A stretch of 64,000 nt of DNA from Morchella semilibera (Eukaryota > Ascomycota > Pezizomycetes > Pezizales > Morchellaceae), in NCBI GenBank assembly GCA_009192285.1, contig CM018604.1, positions 3,162,001-3,226,000 on the forward strand. The letters run 5' to 3'. How positions within the stretch are numbered: position 1 is the first letter of the stretch; every line of letters begins with the position of its first letter. A program made the position numbers and the translations under genes. Positions 10,058 to 57,984 of the stretch are shown here, one piece after another. The notes under the pieces were generated by a model. That model ran no database searches, had not been told where the DNA came from, and was given only the letters and a program-made list of their open reading frames with translations.

Positions 10058-13000
10058 TCAAACAAGAGCCTTAAACTTCGATAAAAGTTCATTGATTCGG
10101 AACGGCTTTGGAATCGCGTCATCCTGTAGTATTGTCAGATATTATCCAGAAACTATCTGCCCATTTGATGAGAATGTTTCCCCTACCATCCCCGCCACAG
10201 TCATTCCTGCTACTATATAAAGGTCAGAATTAGTTCAACAAATACTTATTCAATCCTAGAGACCCTCTCACATTGTTCGGCTCTAGCATTTGCACTTATG
10301 CCAATAATCGGGATATGTCCAGCTCTCCGCTGGGTCTCCAACTGCCTAATTCTTTTAGTTGCCTCAACGCCTCCCATCACCGGCATTTCCATATCCATCA
10401 ATACAATATCAAGAGGCTTCCCATCTTTCTTTACAAATCTTGATAGCATGATCTTTTCCAGAGCCTCTTGTCCATTATTTGCCGTGTCAACTACACACCC
10501 TTCCATGACCAGCTGCTGTCGAAGGACCTTTTGGTTGATCAGGTTGTCCTCAACGACAAGAACATGATAGAGAGGGTCTTGGCTGACCTTACGAATGCTA
10601 CTCGCTCCCGATGGATACTTGGACGGGCCGGAATGGCTACGGGTATCCCAAGAACTAGAGCGATGGCTAGTCGGGTGCCCGGATTGTAAACTTCCCTGCG
10701 CGCTTGAGGGAGAGCCAATTGAGGCTGAAGTAGTGGGAGTTACCGGTTTGGAGGTTCGGCATGCCTTGATATAAAACCGAAAAACACTTCCTTCACCTTC
10801 AACGGATGATACACCAATATTACCCCCTTGTAACTGGCACAGGCGTCTGGATATATAGAGACCAAGACCACTTCCACCATATGTGATATGTGTTTTTGGG
10901 ACCTGATTAAATCGCTGAAACAGGTTTCGTTTATCTTTCTTACTGATGCCTATCCCAGTGTCCTACTTAAACATTAATGGCCTAGTAATGCGCAAGGATT
11001 ACAAGGTGATAAAGCTGATTCTTCAATACCTTTACAGTGATGGTAAGGAATAAGGGTTCTCCTGCTCCCAAATCTGGTGCACCTGTACTCTCTTGTTCTA
11101 GAATCTTCTCTGTGGGTAGGTAATCAAAATTCGACCAGTTTGTTGGGCTTTCCAAAGAAGCGTCAAGTAGAACACAGACCCTTTTCTCGCCCTCTTTAAG
11201 AGAAGTAAATTTAATAGCTGTAGAGAGGTAAGCTCATGCCAACATAAATAGTGTTGGGGGGAGTGGGGAACTAACCATTTGCAACGAGATTGACTAAAAT
11301 TTGTGTTGTTCTGCTTGGGTCTATTTTGACCCATGAGACATCCAGCAAATCGTAGCCCTCAAGGACACGAAACTCCCAGCCTATCCCTTTCCCAGAAAGT
11401 TCGGCTTCAAACATCTTTAGCCCCTTCCACACCAAATCTCTAGGATCCGTTGGAACAGGAGATACTGTCATTAGGTTTGAATCCAGTTTACTCACTGCAA
11501 GAATATCCTCAATGATTATTCTTTGATGATTGACGCAAAGGAGAATCGTTTGCGCAGAATCGGTTATTTGCTCAACATCCAATGTTGGTGATTTCCCGAT
11601 CCTGTGCCTATTTAGCAAACCAATAATTCCTTCTGCTGATTGTAAAACAGCAGATAGAGGGTTTCGGAGTTCATGAGATGAAATATCAATAAAGTTTTCT
11701 TGCTGTCGCTTCCTCTCGAGTGCTTGTGATGCCAACTGTTTTTGGTGACGTGCCTCCTGCACAGCTCTTCTCAAGTCTTCCGTTAACAGCCTTATTCTTC
11801 CGAGAGATGTCGCAAGTTGTTCCATTAGCATAGTAAGCCAGGTGAAATACTCATGGTCATATGGCCTTCTTGGATTAAGTCCTAATATAAGATATCCGAA
11901 TGTCCTTGAAGGGCTGGGTTGTATTGGTATGATAGCTGCGTGTGTACATGGGTCTCCAAACCCTCTGAACTCGATTTCGGAAAGTTCCTGCTTGTAACTA
12001 TGTGGTGCCGTTGCAAGATCCTTGACAACAACCGAGTTTGACTCCCGTGCTAGTAACATCTCTTGGTAGAACAGGAAATGCTCTTCGGTCTCACAAAGTC
12101 CAAATCCACTCGACGATGATGTTGTGCCAGTAGTTTCCTCTGGTGTCATATCTTCGCTATGCTCCTCATTAAGTCCAGATACTGTTCTAGGACAAGACAA
12201 TGCAAGTATATCACACTGACTTGAAGCCCCTGTGAATGTATTTCTAGAGCTACACGCAGTTTTCCCTCCAACATGGACCTCTTCTGGAACCAATTTGCCC
12301 TTCGCGTGAAGGTGTTCTGGAATTCCTAAGGTTCCAGCTAGCACGCAGCTTTTCTCAGAAACAACCCTATAAAGGATTGCAAATGGACTGTCGTACTCAT
12401 TGGAACCCAGACCCTCAAGAACTAACTTCCAGAAATCATCGCGGTCAAGATCTCGGATAAGTTCCACATTCGACCGAATCTTGTGTAGAGTCTCTATGCG
12501 GCGAGCCTGAATTACTTGGGAGGTTTTTGAATGAGCTTGTTTTAAAACTCCCTCGGCGCTTCCTGATGCTCCAATTATTGGCGAGATTATGAAATTGTAG
12601 TAGCGCTCCTCTACCGGAACTTCCCCAGGCAGGAATATCTGCTCGTTGGTTCGCAAGGTAGTCTTTCCGTCGAGGGCATCCAGTAGCATAGGCATCATAT
12701 ATTCTCTAAATTTAGGAAATCCGATTTCGAATGGTTGGCCGAGGGCTCCCGGATGGTTTTCACCAGCCAATATTCTTGCTTGTGGGTTATAAACTGCGAT
12801 AAGTTCCTTACCCCAGTATACCATAGCAGGATGAGGGAATGACCTTTATTTGGCAGGCCAAAGTATTAGTGTTCTGTGTCCCGGGGGCAAGAGAGAGTAG
12901 CTTACATGACAACATTGGCAATGCAACGAAGAGATACGGGCCAAGTATGCGGAGGGCCCATTGGCGACTGGTACCTGAACAGTTGAACGCGTCAGAGTGG

Positions 13001-30960: not shown

Positions 30961-32952
30961 TCAACCTAGCACCCTCTTCTTCCCCGGGTGCTTTGGGCAC
31001 TTCCACGAATCCTTCCTATGCCCGTACTCGCCACAAGCAGAGCACGTACAATGCATGATCGACTTTCCATCACTCCCACCCTGCTTACTTTGGTCAAACT
31101 TCTGCCTCAACAACTTTGCCTTAAGCTCCTGTTCCTCCACAAACAACTCGTTCTTCGCATTATTGATTTCCAGGAGGCGCTTTTGCAGGTAATCGAGATC
31201 CTCCTCCGGATGGGTTTTTGCAGGAGGTGTAGGAGCTCGCCCGCCTCCTCTTTTCGGCCTCGCGGGTTCTTCCTGAGACACGCGTAGCACAGTCCCCTGC
31301 TTAACTTTCTTTGTTTTCTTTTTCCGCCGCAGCTCCTCCGGCGTTTCGGAGTCGCTATCAACGATAGGGATCTTTCGTTCTGAGGCCGTTACTGGTGCTG
31401 GTTCTGAAGGAGCAGACTTCGACTTCTTCTTCCTCTTCTTCTTCTCTAGCTCTGGTTCTGCGGGTTTTGGCCTTTTTCTCTTCTTTCGTGGTGGATTGTC
31501 CGACATATCAGTATCGCTGTCGACAGCGGGGATCTCTCTGCGTTTCTTCTTCCGCTCCCTCCGCCCTGGCTCGCTGTCAGATTCAGACTCTTGTTTGATT
31601 GTAGGCTTTGCTTTCTTCTTTTTCCGGGGTGGCTCGTCCGGGGGTTCGCTGTCCTGACTTTCAGGCTCTGGTGATGCAGATAGCGACTTGAGGGGAGATC
31701 GCTCAGTGTGGGCAGCGGGGACCTCTGCTTTTGTTTCTGAGGGGAGCCCAATTCCGTGGTCGGCAGTAGGTATTTCCGGTGCTGGTTCCGGCCGTATAAA
31801 TGGTGGCCTATTCTGTCCCCGCAGCGGCTGTTCCGACATCTGAGCGTCCTTCTTTTCTATATCTCTTGATCGTCCTCCCATCCCTGTCACCCTACTGCCA
31901 ATGATATTAGTTTTATAGGGTTGAGATGGGCCCGCTGTGGTTATGTTGGCCCCAGGATGTCGTAAGGTAGATTCCCTTAGAGAAGGGACAGGCGACGAGG
32001 TAGAGATGCTTGGTGATGGTACTGTGCTCAATGAATGGGAATGCTTAGGTTCCCTGAACCCGATTCTAAGCGTGTTTACAGCACCCGGCTTCACTAAATC
32101 CAGTCTGAATTCCATATTTCCGTTTGCCACCCTTAGGCATGAGCTTAAACTTTCTATGATGGAGCGCACTGTATCGTCTGGGTCTGGCTCTCGGATAGAA
32201 GTTATGCCAACTGAGTTCGTGCGCAACAAGACAAATGGTTTCTCTCCCTTCTGGTGGTGAGTTAAGGTCACCTGTTTTTCGGGAGACAACTGGAAGATTA
32301 ACCAGCCCCCTGCGTTTGGCCCACCACTGCGAGGTTTAAAGTGGAACATGATGTATTTGGAGGGATTCTGCATCTCACATATCGAGCATAATATCAACGA
32401 CAAAGTAAGGCTGGACCATCTATCTCTCACGGCTCGATGGTATCGATCGGGGGTGGCACTCCAAAACAATTCGGGATTGGAGCTCTCCGTACTTAAGGAT
32501 TTGGCGTAAACTCTCGTTTTATGGTTATCGGCGCCGAATAACAGGTTTTGCAAGAAACCCCCCTGCTCATGATGGTTTTGCGATTGATTACGGTGTGGTT
32601 GATTGTCTTCCTGATGATTTTGGGGGACATGGTGCCTATTGATTTCCCGATCCTCTCTATCCCAATCCTCCCGAGCCCAGCCCACTCTGCCGTCAACCTC
32701 ACTTGCCCCAGCCTGTCGCGTGTAGTAGTGGTGTCGTGGCGGGTTGTGTGGTGCTCGACTTTCCACAAAGTTCTGGCGATGCCCACTGAGTTCGGGGGTG
32801 CTATATAAGACATTTCGCGGGGTGGCGATCTGGTGAGGTTGGTTGATTGAACGGTTGATTTGGGGTCGATAATGGTCTGGGTAATCGATAGCCCGAGGAC
32901 CAAGATTGCTGGTACGGTCCATATCGTAGTCTTCCCCTTGCCACCTAGGCAT
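30961..32952 (-). CDS. Lys-rich nuclear-type protein with C-terminal TAF1-like zinc knuckle, about 663 aa
   Basis: Single-exon gene. The frame opens further up to 33162, but the first 70 residues look untranslated; MPRWQGEDYDMDR at 32952 is the likelier start. Residues 1-130 are polar and His/Arg/Asn-rich. A folded region follows (about 150-310: SLILCSICEM, YIMFHFKPRSGG, WLIFQLSPEKQVTL, MEFRLDLVKPG). Residues about 400-590 are disordered, alternating acidic SDSD clusters with basic patches such as RKKKKAKP, RKKRKRPKP and LEKKKRKKKSK, which are strong nuclear localisation signals. Short units EIPTAD, EVPAAH, EIPAVDSD and KIPIVDSD recur. A possible coiled coil (DYLQKRLLEINNAKNELF) precedes the knuckle CSACGEYGHRKDSWKCP (C-x2-C-x4-H-x6-C), the spacing of the TAF1 zinc knuckle. 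Chromatin or transcription role is inferred. It is divergent from the 34183 gene. Confidence 0.75.
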   Translation of the reverse strand: MPRWQGEDYDMDRTSNLGPRAIDYPDHYRPQINRSINQPHQIATPRNVLYSTPELSGHRQNFVESRAPHNPPRHHYYTRQAGASEVDGRVGWAREDWDREDREINRHHVPQNHQEDNQPHRNQSQNHHEQGGFLQNLLFGADNHKTRVYAKSLSTESSNPELFWSATPDRYHRAVRDRWSSLTLSLILCSICEMQNPSKYIMFHFKPRSGGPNAGGWLIFQLSPEKQVTLTHHQKGEKPFVLLRTNSVGITSIREPDPDDTVRSIIESLSSCLRVANGNMEFRLDLVKPGAVNTLRIGFREPKHSHSLSTVPSPSISTSSPVPSLRESTLRHPGANITTAGPSQPYKTNIIGSRVTGMGGRSRDIEKKDAQMSEQPLRGQNRPPFIRPEPAPEIPTADHGIGLPSETKAEVPAAHTERSPLKSLSASPEPESQDSEPPDEPPRKKKKAKPTIKQESESDSEPGRRERKKKRREIPAVDSDTDMSDNPPRKKRKRPKPAEPELEKKKRKKKSKSAPSEPAPVTASERKIPIVDSDSETPEELRRKKKTKKVKQGTVLRVSQEEPARPKRGGGRAPTPPAKTHPEEDLDYLQKRLLEINNAKNELFVEEQELKAKLLRQKFDQSKQGGSDGKSIMHCTCSACGEYGHRKDSWKCPKHPGKKRVLG

Positions 32953-34182
32953 GATACGGGGTTTCCATAGAGCGGTGTGGGTGGTAAAGAAGAAGTACAA
33001 ACCGTACACGAGACGGTTTGGAAGCGACGAGCAGAATCTTTTGCCATGGTCTGGTGTAACCGCCAAGAGACAATAACCGATCACGTGATCATCGATATTC
33101 TGAGATTCTGCGATATCACTGCCTATCACTCGGGAGGCCTTCTGTTGCTTCAATAAGTCCAAGTCCTAATGCGAAGAAGCGGTCTATTAGTAGCCATATC
33201 TTTACTTTAATACCAATGGGGGGGTGTTTTGTTATTAGTGACTTTATGTCGTCGGTATTGGGGATGCACATACAATCTATCAAGAATCGGTGAAATCGAA
33301 TGTAATTCTCAGTGGGCGACTCTACTCGTGCATGTGGTATGAGTTGGTGCAACACTGTGTAGGGACCGGATGGATTGGGCTAACTCGAGTGATACCACGT
33401 GACCTATATTCAGGTAGGACATGGTGGGCCGTTCCCCTTTCACCTGTAGGACGGGCGAAATTTTGATGTACGGCGTGGGTGATCCTCTCCGATGATACCA
33501 TATCAGGGTACGGTCTCTTGGGGCCCAGGTGCTCTAGCAAGAGGCCCACGGACTATAAATAGATGTAGTGGTGAAGAAAGGAATGGAAAAATCGTAGCGA
33601 AAGGTAAATAAATCCCTACTGAATTCGGAATTGAAGCCCGGGGGTGGGTAAGAGGGAGGATCAATTGATATTGATGGAGAGGATAGATTGATGGAAAGGT
33701 GAAGTTACCTGTGGATGACTAGCGTTTAACTATGTTCTTTGAAAAGGTGTGGTTTAGTGGGCCTTAGTCTCCCTTTGAAGCAAGCGATTTTCTTTGGCGG
33801 GGGTAGATGGAGAATACTGGGTTGGATTCAAACGGCTCTGACGGAAAGGGAAAGTTGAGTTTTTCGCCCCCAAAAATCTGCATGTCGTGTTCTACTGGAG
33901 AAGAAACGGCATAGTCGCTAGTACGTTACATCTCCGGTACTGAAATCTGCTATAGCGGGATGCCAAGGTTTTCAGAGCATACATGAGTAGAGCTGTAGAG
34001 CTGTAAACGGAAAGTTTGAAACTTTTGAATGGTAAATAGTTTCCCGGAACGATCTGTCTTCACCGCTTCATCTTCCGTACATGTATCCCTCACATCCTCC
34101 GTATCTTACATTACAACCCCTTAATATCTTCCCACATCTTTCTTAATTATTCATATACAAACTTTTCTTAATCATATGTGAA
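32953..34182. promoter_or_regulatory. Shared divergent promoter region
   Basis: 1.2 kb separates the start codons of the zinc-knuckle gene (-) and the SANT/pseudo-RNase H gene (+). The stretch just upstream of 34183 is C/T-rich and then A/T-rich, like other fungal core promoters here, and contains TACATGTA at about 34077. Head-to-head arrangement allows co-regulation; that is inference. Confidence 0.4.
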
Positions 34183-37100
34183 ATGGGAAGTTCAAAGCCC
34201 CTTCATCCTCCTCCCAGTGGGAGAAGGAGGAGTATTAGAGCCGTCTCACTTCCCTCTCCACCGCCTCCTACTATTGGCCGCACACATTCAACACGGTCTC
34301 TCTACGCCAAGACACCCAACACAGTCAAAGCTATTAGAGAGCCATCCACGCTTCTAAACGAAGCTCCTCATCCAATAATGGCAAATACAAAGGACGGCAT
34401 CCGCCAGCGGAACTACACTCTGGAGGAAAAAGTATGGATTTTCGATCAAGCAGAGAGGGTTACTAATGGTGATGGTACCTGGGAGGATCTTACTGCAGCC
34501 TTTAATGCCACTCACGGTAGAGCAAAAGAAGCTCGGATGGTCAAAGCTTACTACGCGTACTCATACCGTGAGGTCAAAAACGGACGGGCCGTGGATCCGC
34601 GGAGCATCAAAGATCAGGATTCTACGGAAAATTTGGCATCAAAGTCGACAGTATTAAAGACAGCATCTCGACGTAAGCTAGTATTGGTCGATACTACTGA
34701 CTCAGATGACCACGATGAACTTAACTCAGCAGCGCCATCAAAACGCAGAAAGACCCTTACGAATCCCATAAAATCCGATACTGTCAGAAAAACGGCCACC
34801 CAGGGTAGCTCAAAGGGTAGAGGAAGGCCTAAGAGCTCATCCGATGCAGTCCCTCTTACTTTAAATTGGGTAGAGGAAGCTGGATCTTTGTCTGACGGGA
34901 TGTCGGCAGAAAATAATAAGGGAGGTCCTAAAAGAAACAAAGTAGCGGCTGTTGAGCTAAGTACACGTGTGACTAACTTTGTGATGGTTTACAACCCATT
35001 CTTAGGATTGTTGCTGACAGATTAATAGATTTGTCAGATAAAGCGGGCTCAAGAACCAGGGCTTCTCCTCGAAAGTTCGGAGTGACGCTGAGACCGAGGG
35101 TGGGATCAAAAAATCAAGTTTCTAGAGACTCTAGAGTCATGGCTATGGCCATGAAGCGTGCTGAACCAGACAGCGAAAACGATAATGGAGATAAAGATGA
35201 GGTTTATGATGATAGCGCCGAAGAAGTTGAGTCTAAAGATGAGGATAGTAGTGATACGATGACTACTGATAGTGAGAGTAGCCAAAACTGTGGGTCAATA
35301 TTTTTTTTCCGAACCAAAGAATTATCTCAATACGTTATAATCTACTGTCATTCTAGGATAAATGTTTGAATATCATTCACTAACATTATCAATAACTGCG
35401 AGCGTAGACACTAGATTCGATGGTGAAGACAATTTAAGGGATGAAGAGGGGACCGGGGAAGCTTTAGAGAGTGATAAAGAAAGTGAAGAGTGGGAAGAAC
35501 AAGACGTTAGCGGTATAGGGGATGTTACTATTGAGCAACCTTCATTGGCGGGTAAGTTAGACGTCTCTACCACCGAGGAAAATACGGTCTCTGGGTCTGA
35601 TAAGAAGGATGGACCCGTGGACACGGAAGAAAGCGATACCAACGAGAAAGTCTGCGATACAATTTCTGGCTGCGAAGGAAAAATTATTACCCTGGTGGAT
35701 GAAGGGGATAGAAACGGCGAGTCATCAAAAACGCGCGAGGCTCCTGATGAGCAGTTGCGTAGTGTTGCTTTCAAACTAGTTGTTGAGAGGAAAGAAATAC
35801 TTGAAGATAGCAAGGGCAACGAAGAACATGGAGGGGGTGAAGATGACGAAGATGAAGAAGCGATTAGAAGGAGATTCGTCACCGCTATCCCTATTAATTT
35901 CGGACAAAGCCTTACCAAACCTGCCGCGCCTTCCCCCTCACGCAAAGTGCTCAAGGAAACCAAACACTTATATTCTCTCAACTCCAGTCGGGCTGCTTTG
36001 GAGCACATTAGCTTACCTCTCCCATCCCTGGTTAGAGGTGAGGTGAACAGTACTTCTCTGGGCCGTACCAGCTTCGGATCTGTTTCTCCCAGGTATGCAG
36101 AGAAATCGGTTAAGGGAAACAACGGAGGAGAAAGCGTTCATGTCAAGCATCTTGCCAATGTTGGCCAGAACGCTATTCAGGTCCCTGGCCTTGATAGTAC
36201 CAATCACCGAAAAATTCTGGCTCCATTTCTTCTAGATAAGCCTCATGACTTTGAGTTCCCGGTCCTTTACGAGAAACCCCACATAGCAGGACATTTTGGC
36301 GGAGATATCAGCCTATCAGAGGGAGATGCTGCATATCAGGTGTTCGAAAAAGTAGGGCCATCCACAATCACTCATGTTGAACCTATCGTGCAACCTGTGA
36401 GCAAGAGGAATATCGAATTTGCACAGTCTGAGCATACACCCATCGGTGTTGGGGAAAGTGAGGCGCTCGGGAACCCGAAACCCACTTCCGGGACGCCGGT
36501 TATCAGAGGAAGGATGAGTAGAAGTCTCACAACTCCAGGTAATTTTACCTCTACAAATCCTTCAGACATTACGGCCCACCGAGAGATAGTGGGTCCGGGC
36601 CGGGGCAGGTCGTATTCAATGGAAAAATCGGAAGAAACGCCAGGTTAGTATATGATTCCCAGATTATATACTTTACAAGAGTGCTGACACTCTAAAGCAT
36701 GGGCCCCATATGAAAAACAGTCAGTTAAACCACTATTGGGCGTAGAGCGGCTATTAGAGGCATCACCAAACTCAAGCGGATCTTTAATGTTTCTCTCCTA
36801 TGAGAGTATGATTGTAGAGGATTCCATTGTTTGTGAAAGTTCGAAGATTCCCGTGGGGGGATCGGATCAAGGGGAAGGCATGCCTGGCAGTAATCACGAC
36901 GTTCGAGAAATTGGTAAGCTGTGTTGTGTTTTCATTATTGTAGAAAAGGATATATTTGAGAGGCTGGGCTTCATGGGTATTAATCTTTGAAAAGAGGGTT
37001 TTATTGACAGAAACGAAGTTCTAGGGGTTGATTGCATCGACGGACAGCAGCAGATGCCACAGGGCATCGTTGACCAAGGACAGTGTGAGATACACAGTGC

Positions 37101-37906
37101 AATTCCCACCACCGATCCCATTGAAAAGGTTCCTAAGAAGCAGATGAAAAGGGTCATTCTTCAAGAGGAATCAACTACCGAAACTTTGCAGTTGCCCGCC
37201 AAGAAAATAAGGTTATCGCACGCTGGTAGTGGCCAAACTATGGATAGAGCCGACCAAACAACCCATGCTCCAACGGCATATGAGGCTTCTGTTACAGTTG
37301 CAGGTACCCTTACACCTGGTCTAACTTCTCCTCCGTTAAGAGCTCAAGCCATGTCTATCACAAATGAGGGAGGCATCCGTCGTATTTATCTCGACCGCGG
37401 TGCCATCGGTACCAGCAGTCCCTCCGCTATCCCGGGCCCCATTAGCTGGGATAGGATTCCTGAGGAAGGGTAAGTCATGCTCCTCGTTTGTGCGACCTGC
37501 TTCAGAATTTTGATTGCTCATGAAATTATTTTAAAGGTCCGGCACTCTCGAAAGAACTCTGACTGCCGAGTTTCGAGAAATCGTGGAGGCCTTGACACTT
37601 GGAAGAAATGATAGACGCCTGTTCATTTACACCTGCTCCCAATCCGCTATCGAGTGGGTCACCGTCCACCATCTAAGGGCAAGGAAGACTCAGTGGAGAA
37701 CGCAATGGGGAATTCAAGTCCCGCAGGGTGACCAACACTTGATCGAGAAGGCAGTTGTGTTACTTGAAGAGAGAAAGAACAGTGGTAAAGAAATCGAATT
37801 CAAGCGTGTATGGGGCGGAAAAAAGGTTTATGAGGGCCTGATCTTGGAAGCGCAACGAGAATATCTCGAGGCTCATGGTCAGGATTCTTCTGAGGCTTCA
37901 TCTTAA
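34183..37906 (+). CDS. Large acidic protein with SANT-like N-terminus and degenerate RNase H-like C-terminus, six exons, 1098 aa
   Basis: Exons 34183-34960, 35038-35289, 35408-36643, 36698-36913, 37025-37469, 37537-37906; 3297 nt, all junctions in frame. Introns 4 and 5 have strong donors (GTAAGC, GTAAGT); introns 1 and 2 are less certain. Residues 76-130 resemble a Myb/SANT helical domain (NYTLEEKVWIFDQAER, then TWEDLTAAFNATHGR, VKAYYAYS). Residues about 140-640 are disordered, first basic (SKRRKTL, GRGRPKSS, an AT-hook-like run) and then very acidic. Residues about 946-1092 follow the RNase H1 order: IYLDRGAI (Asp951), TAEFREIVEAL (Glu987), LFIYTCSQSAIEWVT, QWRTQWGIQVP, IEFKRVWGG and EAQREYLEA. 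The second catalytic Asp is Cys1009, the last is Gln1082, and the usual GH is GG. So the fold may remain without catalysis. A nuclear role is inferred. Confidence 0.8.
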
Positions 37907-40321
37907 ACAGATTTCCCTCGGATATTCTAAGGTATTATCATCTCTGACCTTGAGTGATATATAGTCATTATGCTTATAAAATACTCACAATGCTTGGCAC
38001 AGTTCGAATAGTTGTACGGTGAGCTAGGGATGCTGGATACACTTTCAATTCTCTTGTGAAAAGTTTTGAATTGTCAGAAGTACTATAGCTTAGAGTCTCA
38101 TGTACAAATCTTGTCATTTTCAACTGATTTGAGCGACCGAATACTTCTTTCATTGTACTCATAATCTGAGGAGGTGAGCTATAAAGGCTCTGGTTTCCTT
38201 ACATAAATGCAAGTGATATGAAATTACGGCCTTTTTTCTTATTCATTGCGGTTACTGTGTGATTATATCACTATATATTTATATAACGGACTTTTTCAGG
38301 AAATACAAGAAAGGTCCCAGAAAAGAAGAGGGCTGTATAATTCCCCCAAGAGTAGGATAGAAAAAACAGTTAGAAGCATCGCGGTGATAGTATTCAGACC
38401 TAAATTTAAAGCCACAAAGCTCTTCCGTGTCTAATGGGACGTATATTGGGTGTATCGCGTGCAGAAATTGGTAAAGCCAGTGTTTACAAAGTTAGGCCCA
38501 GTTATTCTAGTAGAAATTCATTGTGGGGTAGCTTCCGGGCACTTCAGCCTGCGTAATATGGGATTTGCTTTTGGAGGGAGTCTCAAGAGGTGTGTAGGGC
38601 CTACTTCCTACTTGATAATACATGCACCTAGACTCTGTTTTTGTAACTGCTTACTGGACCATTAAATCAAATGACTTGCGGTAGTGCAAGGCTATAGAGT
38701 TCTAGCAGCTCAAACATCTGGGGGCCTTTTTGACCGGATATATTTCTCTGCACTGGTAAGTCTCGCTGCAATTAATGCTGTATTTGAAACCACATAAACT
38801 TTGAACTCACTGTAGATTATATTAAGCTTAAACTTGGCAAATATGGGCCTCATTATATGGTTGAAAGGTGAGAATAACTCGAGTGCAACGCCTTGAACGC
38901 GTTATCGCTGGAGGTACCCGGTTACGGAATTTAATGGTTTAGGCTACTCTACATTGGACAAGACATCATGTATTACCTCTAGCTGTTGAAGAGCGGTATC
39001 TTCGTTGCTGGTCTGAATATTAACAGAGGGCCTCATGCCTGTTTAGAGGACTATGTGTGCCGCCTCTGGTCTTTCATCGAAACGTTTCTTCAAGGCAGGT
39101 GGCCTATCTTAAGCAGGGGCGTAGCACTGATAATATCAGAGATGTTGGAGATAGTTGGGGATGCGGGGAGTTTGGAGTTTGATATTGAACCGTCCCTTTG
39201 CTCGGTTCTAGCGGGTTCTCTGTAAGGAAGAGCCTCCTGCTCTTCCTAATGTTCTTCTGCTTTATTAGTACAACTAGCAGATTCTCCTAGACCAGATATA
39301 CTGTTTGCATGTACAATTGCGGTTGATGCCGTTTTCTGATTTGGGCACTCAAAAGATGAACCCCGGGGCATTCCCCTACGTACAGCTCAAGTAAAGCATG
39401 TAAAACACATGTTTCGACTGGCTCCAATAATTTGGAGATACCTTCAGTCAAAAGCTGTCGATCAATGAGCTCTTAATCGCAGATATGGTTATGGCCGGGG
39501 TGGTTCTTACTGTATGAAAAATGAAGAGACACTGCGTTGCAGCCGATTACATGTACTTATATAAGAGAGACCAGTGTCAACGACGCCTTGCATCACAATT
39601 TCAGAAATGAACCAGGGATTTAATTTCTAAACATTCTATATTAAGATCATCCTAGATACAAATATGAGCCCAATGTCGGCACTAATTTCAAATGTTGAGA
39701 TTGTGGCATCCCGTTTGCGTGGTTTTCATGTCCCTGTCCTATATCTACATTAATACTCAAGAAATTCCAACGAATAGCGCTGTCAGTTGATAGTCAGGGA
39801 TCACAATTGTTCCAGTACGTGCCACCTATATGTATAAATAAAACCTTCAAGTACCAGTCTTGTTACACTCACATAAAGCACATAAAGCGTTTTAGGGCTT
39901 GATTTATCCTTGCCCCCGGCACTCAGGGTAATAGTCGGAAAATGGAGTAGAGATTTACTGTTGCCTGATATTCTAATACCCGGTTATCCCGCTTCTTACA
40001 ACATACATGTATGTATGTATGTCTGAACCCCGAGAAACTATTTTAGGATCCAGTCTCTAAACATATTTCCATCAACCTCTACCCTCAAATATATCCTCAT
40101 CATCTCTCAATCTTTAAACATACCATCATAATCATCTTCCGTCAGAAAGACACGCACTACCTCCTATCAGAAAGCTCTTCATCCTGCCTTGTATCTAATT
40201 AGATACTATCTGCTCTGAAACTAGTCCTATTATCACCTGTTTCCTCAGCTGGCAAAGCAGTCATCGTTGAATTAAAATCATCCATAGTTCTCCTCCACTG
40301 AAGTAGAAATTCCAACTAAAC
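37907..40321. other. Intergenic region without supported genes
   Basis: 2.4 kb, A/T-rich. Small frames (38246-38434, 38450-38665, 38986-39225 on +; 37974-38162 on -) are not supported; 38986-39225 (RGPHACLEDYVCRLWSFIE...) has the most protein-like composition. TACATGTA occurs at about 39551 and 40006, the latter continuing into a TATG tandem. C/T-rich DNA at 40070-40200 fits the promoter of the next gene. Confidence 0.5.
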
Positions 40322-41266
40322 ATGCCTACCCGTACCACTCTTTTTACCACGGACTGCGTCGTAAGAATCTTCACTTCCCATCCCCCTCCCAATTTTACTA
40401 ATAGATAGCAAGAATCTGGGGGCCCGCAACAGTCAAGAGGGGGCAGGGCCAAGTCCGTCTCGTAACCGTCTCACAAATAATGTGAATTTCCTGAAAAGGG
40501 AGTGGATAAAGTTTGACTATGAGGATCCTGCTGATCAATTAAGATATCCGGTAAGTTTTGATCAGCTGTAGTCTGTGCATAGGACGGAAAGGTGGATATG
40601 ATCTAACCCCTCCCTTATTAGGACTGGAAGACCCCTGAGGAATGGCAGAAATATGTCAATGAGGTGCACGAGTATATTAGAAATGGGACCCCCGATTTGA
40701 CCGACAATTACCCTTTCCGGAAATATAACCTGACTGCATCCTCGAATTCTGATGGGTTCCCGGTTTTAAAAACTAGTCCATTCACGGGAAAAAATTTGCT
40801 TGCAGATATTGAAAAGAGGCAGGGCTTCAACGCCTGGAAAGTCGGCCATGCCCTCCACATAGTGAGGAAACAGGGGGGCGCCCCAGCACCGAATAGCCAG
40901 CAGAGAAACGAGGTAAAAAAAGCCCTTAGGGCCTATTCTCACACCGTGCGGCAAAGTGTCTTTGCTATGTCTGGCCAACAGGTGCAGAGGTTTATCGAGC
41001 GCCAAATGCCAGGAATTCCAGAAGTCATCCAGCTACAAATCTTCGATGCATGGAGCGATTGGCTGTTTCGAATAGCATGCCGAAATCCAACGCGAAGCTT
41101 GACCAGATATTGGCTGGAAGGCGGCGGAACTCGAATCCCCCAGGATACCGAAGAGGATGAAGTTGAGAGTATGGGTTTGATTACATCTGCGGGCCTACAT
41201 AGGACATGGTCTGAGATGAGCTTAGAGGCTATAGAGTCGTACTATAAGGGTAAAAGCTGGAGCTAA
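40322..41266 (+). CDS. Orphan W-motif family protein, three exons, 273 aa
   Basis: Exons 40322-40360, 40413-40550 and 40622-41266; 822 nt. Intron 1 (52 nt) has GTAAGA, branch TACTAAT and GCAAG; intron 2 (71 nt) has GTAAGT and TTATTAG. The protein begins MPTRTTLFTTDCV and is soluble and probably helical. It has a Trp-rich N-terminal half (REWIKFDYEDP, DWKTPEEWQKYVNEVHEY), then a segment with RKYNLTASSNSDG and KRQGFNAWKVGHAL, a basic helix (QQRNEVKKALRAYS), and a motif AWSDWLFRIACRNPTRSL at about 210-227. No known domain is recognised. The final third is acidic (DTEEDEVESMG). The motif recurs in the genes at 45409 and, more weakly, 47126, and a decayed copy of this gene lies at 63607. Together these point to a lineage-specific family; function unknown. 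Confidence 0.78.
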
Positions 41267-56891: not shown

Positions 56892-57913
56892 TGTGAGTTT
56901 CGACAGGTTTTCCTGTGGATAAGACTGGGACAGAGAATATGGAGGACTATTAGGATTTGAGTCTAGCAGCTCTTATATCCATCTGCTGGACAACGAAGCA
57001 TTGGCCGCATAAATTCCTGAAGTAAGCCCTTACAGGTCATCTACCTATCATTCCAGCTAGGGGGGGCATTGTCACTAATCCCTGCCTGCAGGTTTCAGGA
57101 ATAGACAGGTTGATTGGGGTGTTCTCCCTGGCGTCAACACCCAGTACCAGTTATCGCCTCGGCCGGGGACCCCACGAAACCGCGCGGGGCAACGGTTCGT
57201 GTGCAGGATTATTAGGGTTGATATTATTTGTCCACAGCCCTCCGAAATGGGAACCGGGCATGATATTTTGACATATTTTAGCACCCCGATATGGTGGTAT
57301 TAACTGTGATACCAATTTGTATATAAGATAAGGTCACACACATAGATATAAATTACCCGACTCTAGTCTTGACTTCGAAATCTCTGTTTGATCGCATACT
57401 CAACGTCCGCACTGCGGGGTTGTTAGTACTTATTAACCAGGTCGCGACGCGCAAAGGCAGCCGATATAAGGAAATATAGCTTCTAGTCACTGTAGAGGAG
57501 GTGTCGATGCCTATGGCTAGCCCTTCGTCACTTCATCAATATATTATACTGTAATTACCCCTCTGTTAGCCGTGACTAGTACTTGGTCGTTTAGTAAAAG
57601 GTTGTGTTGCAACAGGGCAATCTTTCACTTTTTCCCACCCGGAATTAAGATTTAGTGGTGGATTTCTCGGGGGTTGGCGGTCGTTCGTATCCTTGACGGG
57701 GAGCAGGGTCGGCCAACAACGCCGGGTAAAAGCTCCATCGTCCGTCGCGCCATCAAGTGGAGTAATTGGCTGTGGCTTGCTCAATATGAAAATTCGCTTT
57801 TTTTTTTAGAGGAAAAGGATTAAGAATGCCAAAGTTTTCAAAGGCCTTTTCGTTTGAGTTGGGATACTCGCGGCAACTCTTTTGAGATCATGAAAAAAAA
57901 AGGAAGGATAGAT
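56892..57913. other. Intergenic region upstream of the dehydrogenase gene
   Basis: About 1 kb with no supported coding region. It carries the promoter of the dehydrogenase gene (minus strand) and ends at the 3' flank of the tRNA. On the minus strand the tRNA is followed within about 20 bases by a T-run (seen as AAAAAAAAA at about 57893-57901), a likely RNA polymerase III terminator. Confidence 0.5.
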
Positions 57914-57984
57914 TCCGTTGCGGGGAATTGAACCCCGATCTAGTCGGTGAGAGCGACTGATGCTAACCTTTACACCACAACGGA
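57914..57984 (-). tRNA. tRNA-Glu (anticodon CTC)
   Basis: 71-nt cloverleaf without intron. The acceptor stem TCCGTTG pairs fully with CAACGGA. The D arm contains GTGTAAAGGTTAGCAT. The anticodon stem AGTCG/CGACT is perfect around the loop CTCTCAC, giving anticodon CTC (Glu, codon GAG). The T arm CGGGG-TTCAATT-CCCCG is perfect and holds the B box. CCA is not encoded, as usual in eukaryotes. Confidence 0.95.

Follow-up and report, generated by a model that had tools for sequence, protein, structure and literature searches.

The predicted gene and its exons

The window analyzed here is a stretch of 64,000 nucleotides from Morchella semilibera (GCA_009192285.1, contig CM018604.1, positions 3,162,001 to 3,226,000 of the forward strand). 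At positions 34183-37906 of its + strand, a frame and splice scan identified six stop-free exons in open frame (Table 1), for a predicted protein with a Myb-like domain, a long acidic region and a C-terminal domain that resembles RNase H1 with an incomplete active site. The joined frame runs through ~1100 codons without a stop. Introns 1 and 4 each have several in-frame solutions; all 18 combinations tried stayed in frame, with products of 1099-1116 residues, and the 1101-residue model was adopted for residue numbering. For intron 2 a few alternatives were listed, and 35294-35402 was adopted.

Table 1. Predicted exons, one intron and the N-terminal domain of the window gene.
Feature	Position	Strand	Remarks
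Exon 1	34183..34960 (3' end uncertain, 34960 or 34966)	+	basic Pro/Ser-rich start, then Myb/trihelix-like domain; open frame, splice options
Myb/SANT/trihelix-like domain	34369..34614	+	modelled stretch; three predicted helices at about 34420-34578
Exon 2	35038..35293 (start uncertain)	+	acidic; open frame and splice scan
Exon 3	35403..36643	+	413 residues open, first part acidic
Exon 4	36698..36913	+	weakest coding signal of the six exons
Exon 5	37025..37469 (start 37025, 37019 or 36995)	+	3' end encodes RNase H-like strand 1 with kept first Asp
Intron 5	37470..37536	+	GTAAGT...TTAAAG, phase 2, in the codon of residue 26 counted from the first Asp
Exon 6	37537..37906	+	remainder of the pseudo-RNase H domain and stop codon

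A codon-usage score was trained on six of the window's open frames, with the flanks of the same gene as noncoding control. In all six exons the true frame scored above both other forward frames and above the 95th percentile of the nearby noncoding sequence; exon 1, for example, reached 0.077, and its two alternative forward frames only -0.020 and -0.009. The six-exon model is plausible. Alternatively, exons 5 and 6 may form a small gene of their own, or the splicing may be wrongly predicted, as could be suspected from the coding signal of exon 4 (0.014 against a noncoding 95th percentile of 0.013), from the ambiguous junctions of introns 1 and 4, and from an ATG at 37054 that could begin a short gene. 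However, the reading frames join without stops, and exon 4 lies only ~140 bases from this ATG, whereas the median intergenic length in Morchella crassipes is given as 1603 (PMC7014384). We consider such an artefact of the gene model improbable.

A genome-wide search with exon 3 gave no paralogue at E<=1. The window gene appears to be single-copy, and its product is probably a fungal protein of nuclear type. Residues 301-400 contain 37 D or E in 100 positions, and this acidic linker is presumably disordered.

Homology to RNase H1 and the state of the active site

The search of the 56.8 Mb genome (56,756,124 bases, 23 contigs) with exon 6 gave two scored candidates, exon 6 itself and one other place, which was the RNase H1 gene L002 (E 6.5e-6, 36% identity). 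Active RNase HI/H1 domains, 32 in all, were also combined into a profile, consisting of 31 loci (30 bacterial ones and L004, a second RNase H1-like gene of the fungus) and the joined L002 domain. The bacterial loci were the best 30 places from the 49 of 57 genomes with a match, plus L029 and L031 (L030 was in both sets), minus those dropped. Self matches (L001, L028), fragments of L002 and L003, duplicates (L025, L026) and partial loci (L027, L059) were left out, and L058, which had no blastp match, stood outside the profile. The window domain scored 23.7 bits, in comparison to at most 11.1 bits for 2000 shuffles (1604 reported). Its score was 19.3 bits when L002 was removed and 19.0 bits when the profile was limited to the 30 bacterial domains, and no shuffle equalled either value. 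Judged by its sequence, the window domain is homologous to RNase H1.

Further collections were searched as well. The scan of genome contigs with RNase H1 gave three bacterial loci, and the plasmid search with RNase H1 gave 747 records, bacterial rnhA among them, which were not used further. In the viral contigs scanned with exon 6 there were ten pattern matches and no relative.

The motifs that the sequence-only reading had listed for an RNase H-like domain all lie where it had placed them. In the 1101-residue model, the Asp of IYLD (codon 37393-37395) is D954, the Glu of TAEF (37568-37570) is E990, the Cys of IYTCS (37634-37636) is C1012, the two Gly of VWGGK (37814-37819) are G1072-G1073, and the Gln of EAQREYLEA (37853-37855) is Q1085. 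The earlier numbers for the Cys and the Gln, 1009 and 1082, designated the right residues and were both lower by three, owing to the ambiguous junctions of introns 1 and 4. In the profile alignment, which is collinear, the Asp and the Glu of the window domain fall on the first two carboxylates and the Cys on the third. Active RNase H1 requires D-E-D-D and GH; here D and E are kept, the third position is Cys, and neither the His nor the last Asp is present. The stretch from strand 1 to helix A is also shorter by about six residues. The third carboxylate is necessary for RNase H activity, and the domain would be expected to lack such activity. The homology, together with the lost D-E-D-D and GH residues, supports the proposal of a pseudo-RNase H domain.

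Several results weigh against reading this domain as an RNase H1 descendant with a lost active site. The 162-residue domain matched no Pfam family at E<=10, PF00075 included. In NCBIfam a single RNase H model was matched weakly (E 0.058, 13.3 bits, cut-off 320), and an unrelated model (E 0.014) ranked above it, both below threshold. The phmmer search against the PDB gave RNase H at E 0.0078 at best, in two weak stretches of which one was out of register. The C-terminal alignment is uncertain too: the pairwise alignment set GG opposite GH, with the Gln placed on the last Asp by eye, and addition with MAFFT put the conserved His opposite Tyr1077 and the last Asp opposite Glu1087; yet neither alignment yields His or Asp at these positions. 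Because the Pfam, NCBIfam and PDB results are so weak, standard annotation would miss the domain.

Origin of the domain

Among the collected domains, L002 was the best blastp match (5e-13, 34.9% identity over residues 11-133 of the window domain), followed by L029 (8e-6) and L038 (0.005). Pairwise z-scores over 500 shuffles were computed for six targets: 21.9 for L002, 9.5 and 1.1 for the bacterial L029 and L034, 0.4 for L004, and 0.8 and 0.2 for L006 and L013, which resemble the RNase H of long interspersed nuclear elements (LINE). Thus, the similarity to L004 and to the LINE-like domains did not rise above that of shuffles.

In L002, a phase-2 intron (donor 1382, acceptor 1441) is readable in the codon of residue 26 from the first catalytic Asp, that is, at the distance and in the phase of intron 5. 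This intron was chosen among five options because its product continues into the human RNase H1 sequence and, as far as the catalytic Glu, needs only one gap of one residue. A hand-set ungapped alignment of the window domain with L002 up to the intron has 8 identities in 29 positions. The free alignment, with gaps before the intron and an offset of about six residues, weakens the case for a shared intron. That the window gene and the host RNase H1 gene have this intron in common is likely, although not proven.

Because of the intron position and the z-scores, we favor a DNA-level duplication of RNase H1 over derivation from a retroelement or a retrocopy. Of the two origins that the sequence-only reading had offered, the duplicated RNase H1 is supported by the affinity to L002 and by an intron readable at the same place. 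The other, a domesticated retroelement RNase H, could draw on the 65 RNase H matches that the genome contains at E<=1; many of these are near-identical long open frames that we take to be LINE copies. However, the profile built from 18 LINE-like loci gave the window domain 0.0 bits, and 184 of 1662 reported shuffles did as well, in a comparison that covered LINE-like RNase H and not the long terminal repeat (LTR) type. Moreover, the protrusion, which is of the RNase H1 type, can be aligned to the host enzyme, and the region 32000-40500 contains no inverted repeat pair and only two short direct-repeat pairs. Judged against LINE-like RNase H, a retroelement source is disfavored and, in our estimate, extremely unlikely.

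Two observations concern the RNase H1 genes themselves. L002 (G000:C23 near 1163.9 kb) has an apparent one-base frame change at about 1500, inside the catalytic domain, for which an assembly error is a likely cause. The second RNase H1-like gene (L004:1186-1956, G000:C19:5528227; PF00075 E 7.9e-19) is a single open frame with an intronless domain, and it has FIDG and VTDS motifs and no GH motif.

Substrate contacts and the core pattern

For human RNase H1, the residues that we take to contact the hybrid are N151, R179, T181, N182, Q183, F213, W221, S233 and N240. The numbering was set from D145 and gave the expected letters at 12 checked positions, with N at 210 since the PDB entry is a D210N mutant. 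In a partly hand-set alignment, the window domain keeps none of these nine contacts, eight being replaced and R179 falling in a gap, whereas the host enzyme L002 keeps eight of nine. Another placement of the gap could bring a nearby Arg to position 179 or 181. At human positions 148 and 150 the window domain is identical to L002, and both differ from the human enzyme.

A hybrid-binding domain (HBD) was not found in the window protein, where the best score was -1.2 bits. Genome-wide, two HBD matches exceeded the cut-off, both in the RNase H1 gene; a third, elsewhere (E 0.37), remained below it. Neither an HBD remnant nor a shared linker was detected upstream of the domain below E 0.1.

The sequence-only reading had suggested that the dead fold was kept for binding R-loops; in such a scheme it would bind R-loops or RNA/DNA hybrids at sites picked by the Myb-like domain. 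A catalytically inactive RNase H does serve as an R-loop probe (PMC12134985), and the protrusion region of the window domain is still basic (RARKTQWR). Because the substrate contacts are lost and no HBD was found, we nevertheless consider R-loop binding unlikely. The protrusion may perhaps allow weak, non-specific binding of nucleic acids.

The conservation of the domain was uneven. Conserved polar columns were kept in 7 of 24 cases, which is the level of shuffles (mean 6.5 in 60), and hydrophobic columns in 26 of 35, more than in any of the 60 shuffles (maximum 23). For a single sequence, this pattern suggests, with modest strength, a fold retained without its chemistry. The main rival explanation is that the domain is a relaxed or decaying RNase H1 duplicate, translated, functionless and drifting, with which both the shuffle-level polar columns and the shortening between strand 1 and helix A agree. 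Against it stand the hydrophobic core, the uninterrupted frame of the whole gene, and a neutral-drift simulation of 155 codons to 60% identity, in which a simple model left 2% of 400 runs stop-free. Decay is unlikely in our view, although it deserves more weight than any other rival.

Predicted structures and the N-terminal domain

The AlphaFold model of exon 6 resembled half an RNase H fold and matched human RNase H1 best (2qk9, 2qkb, 2qkk, 6vrd), from an alignment (the window exon and 18 of 32 collected pieces) that itself favors RNase H1 and covers only the exon 6 half. The model of the N-terminus showed three helices, in an arrangement that resembled the DNA-binding domains of GT-1 trihelix, Sap1 and Reb1 at middling scores. 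The Myb/trihelix-like character of this region is thus weakly supported by modelling. Of the layout proposed in the sequence-only reading, the long acidic linker is supported by the composition of residues 301-400, and the Myb/SANT-like N-terminus stands weakly, on the three-helix model. The sole other genomic match of the N-terminal domain is L024, where two Myb-like stretches flank a long acidic run (L024:1162-2190, G000:C6 near 222.7 kb).

Other features of the window

A divergent, lysine-rich open frame with CxxC..H..C near its end lies on the - strand from 30961 to about 32951, ~1.2 kb upstream of the gene. Farther away, a long open frame at 11271-12845 (- strand) resembles a sensor histidine kinase and contains the motif HELRNP, presumably a sign of this family. 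A tRNA-Glu (CTC) was located at 57913-57984 on the - strand.

Interpretation and known systems

The explanation that we prefer, with a probability of about 0.55, is that the window gene encodes a pseudoenzyme, in which the catalytic domain of the host RNase H1 was duplicated onto a Myb-like, acidic gene and now acts as a docking module. The catalytic domain of the HBD-type host enzyme would have been duplicated at the DNA level, probably with its intron, and joined to a gene whose product combines a Myb/trihelix-like domain with a long acidic linker, with no HBD carried along. The RNase H1 fold would have been kept, while cutting and RNase H1-type recognition of RNA/DNA hybrids were lost. The Myb-like domain would then bring the protein to DNA, the acidic region, presumably disordered, could provide both flexible spacing and a surface for contacts, and the inactive RNase H1 domain may dock a protein partner, with some non-specific affinity for nucleic acids perhaps added by the basic protrusion. 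A more specific version, in which the protein sits on chromatin as a decoy or scaffold, controls the partners of RNase H1 or the metabolism of R-loops at particular sites, and has been kept by selection across morels, strikes us as a long shot.

The nearest comparison is the host RNase H1 (L002), with 35% identity, the same order of elements, and an intron that can be read at the same distance and in the same phase. It differs in having two HBDs and the D-E-D-D and GH residues, whereas the window protein has no HBDs and, of the four carboxylates, only the first two. The catalytic domain of human RNase H1, the best fold match of the exon 6 model, differs in its complete active site and its hybrid contacts. 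Prp8 likewise is a large nuclear protein whose RNase H fold lacks a complete active site (PMC3985635); in contrast to the window protein, it is part of the spliceosome, and the same source gives its domain no significant sequence similarity to other families. Fungi have also repeatedly derived pseudonucleases from Dis3L2 (PMC8097288), and these proteins, Ssd1 among them, are again descendants of a fungal nuclease in which the active site was lost and another role kept. They belong, however, to the RNase II family and bind RNA, and a Myb fusion is not mentioned in the portion of that paper used here. Among the papers listed in searches of open-licence literature, there was no RNase H1-derived pseudonuclease fused to a Myb-like or other DNA-binding-type domain.

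If the window protein proves to be conserved, it would illustrate how the domain of a housekeeping hybrid nuclease can be turned to a non-catalytic use, and it would be a natural example of an RNase H1 fold uncoupled from hybrid binding.
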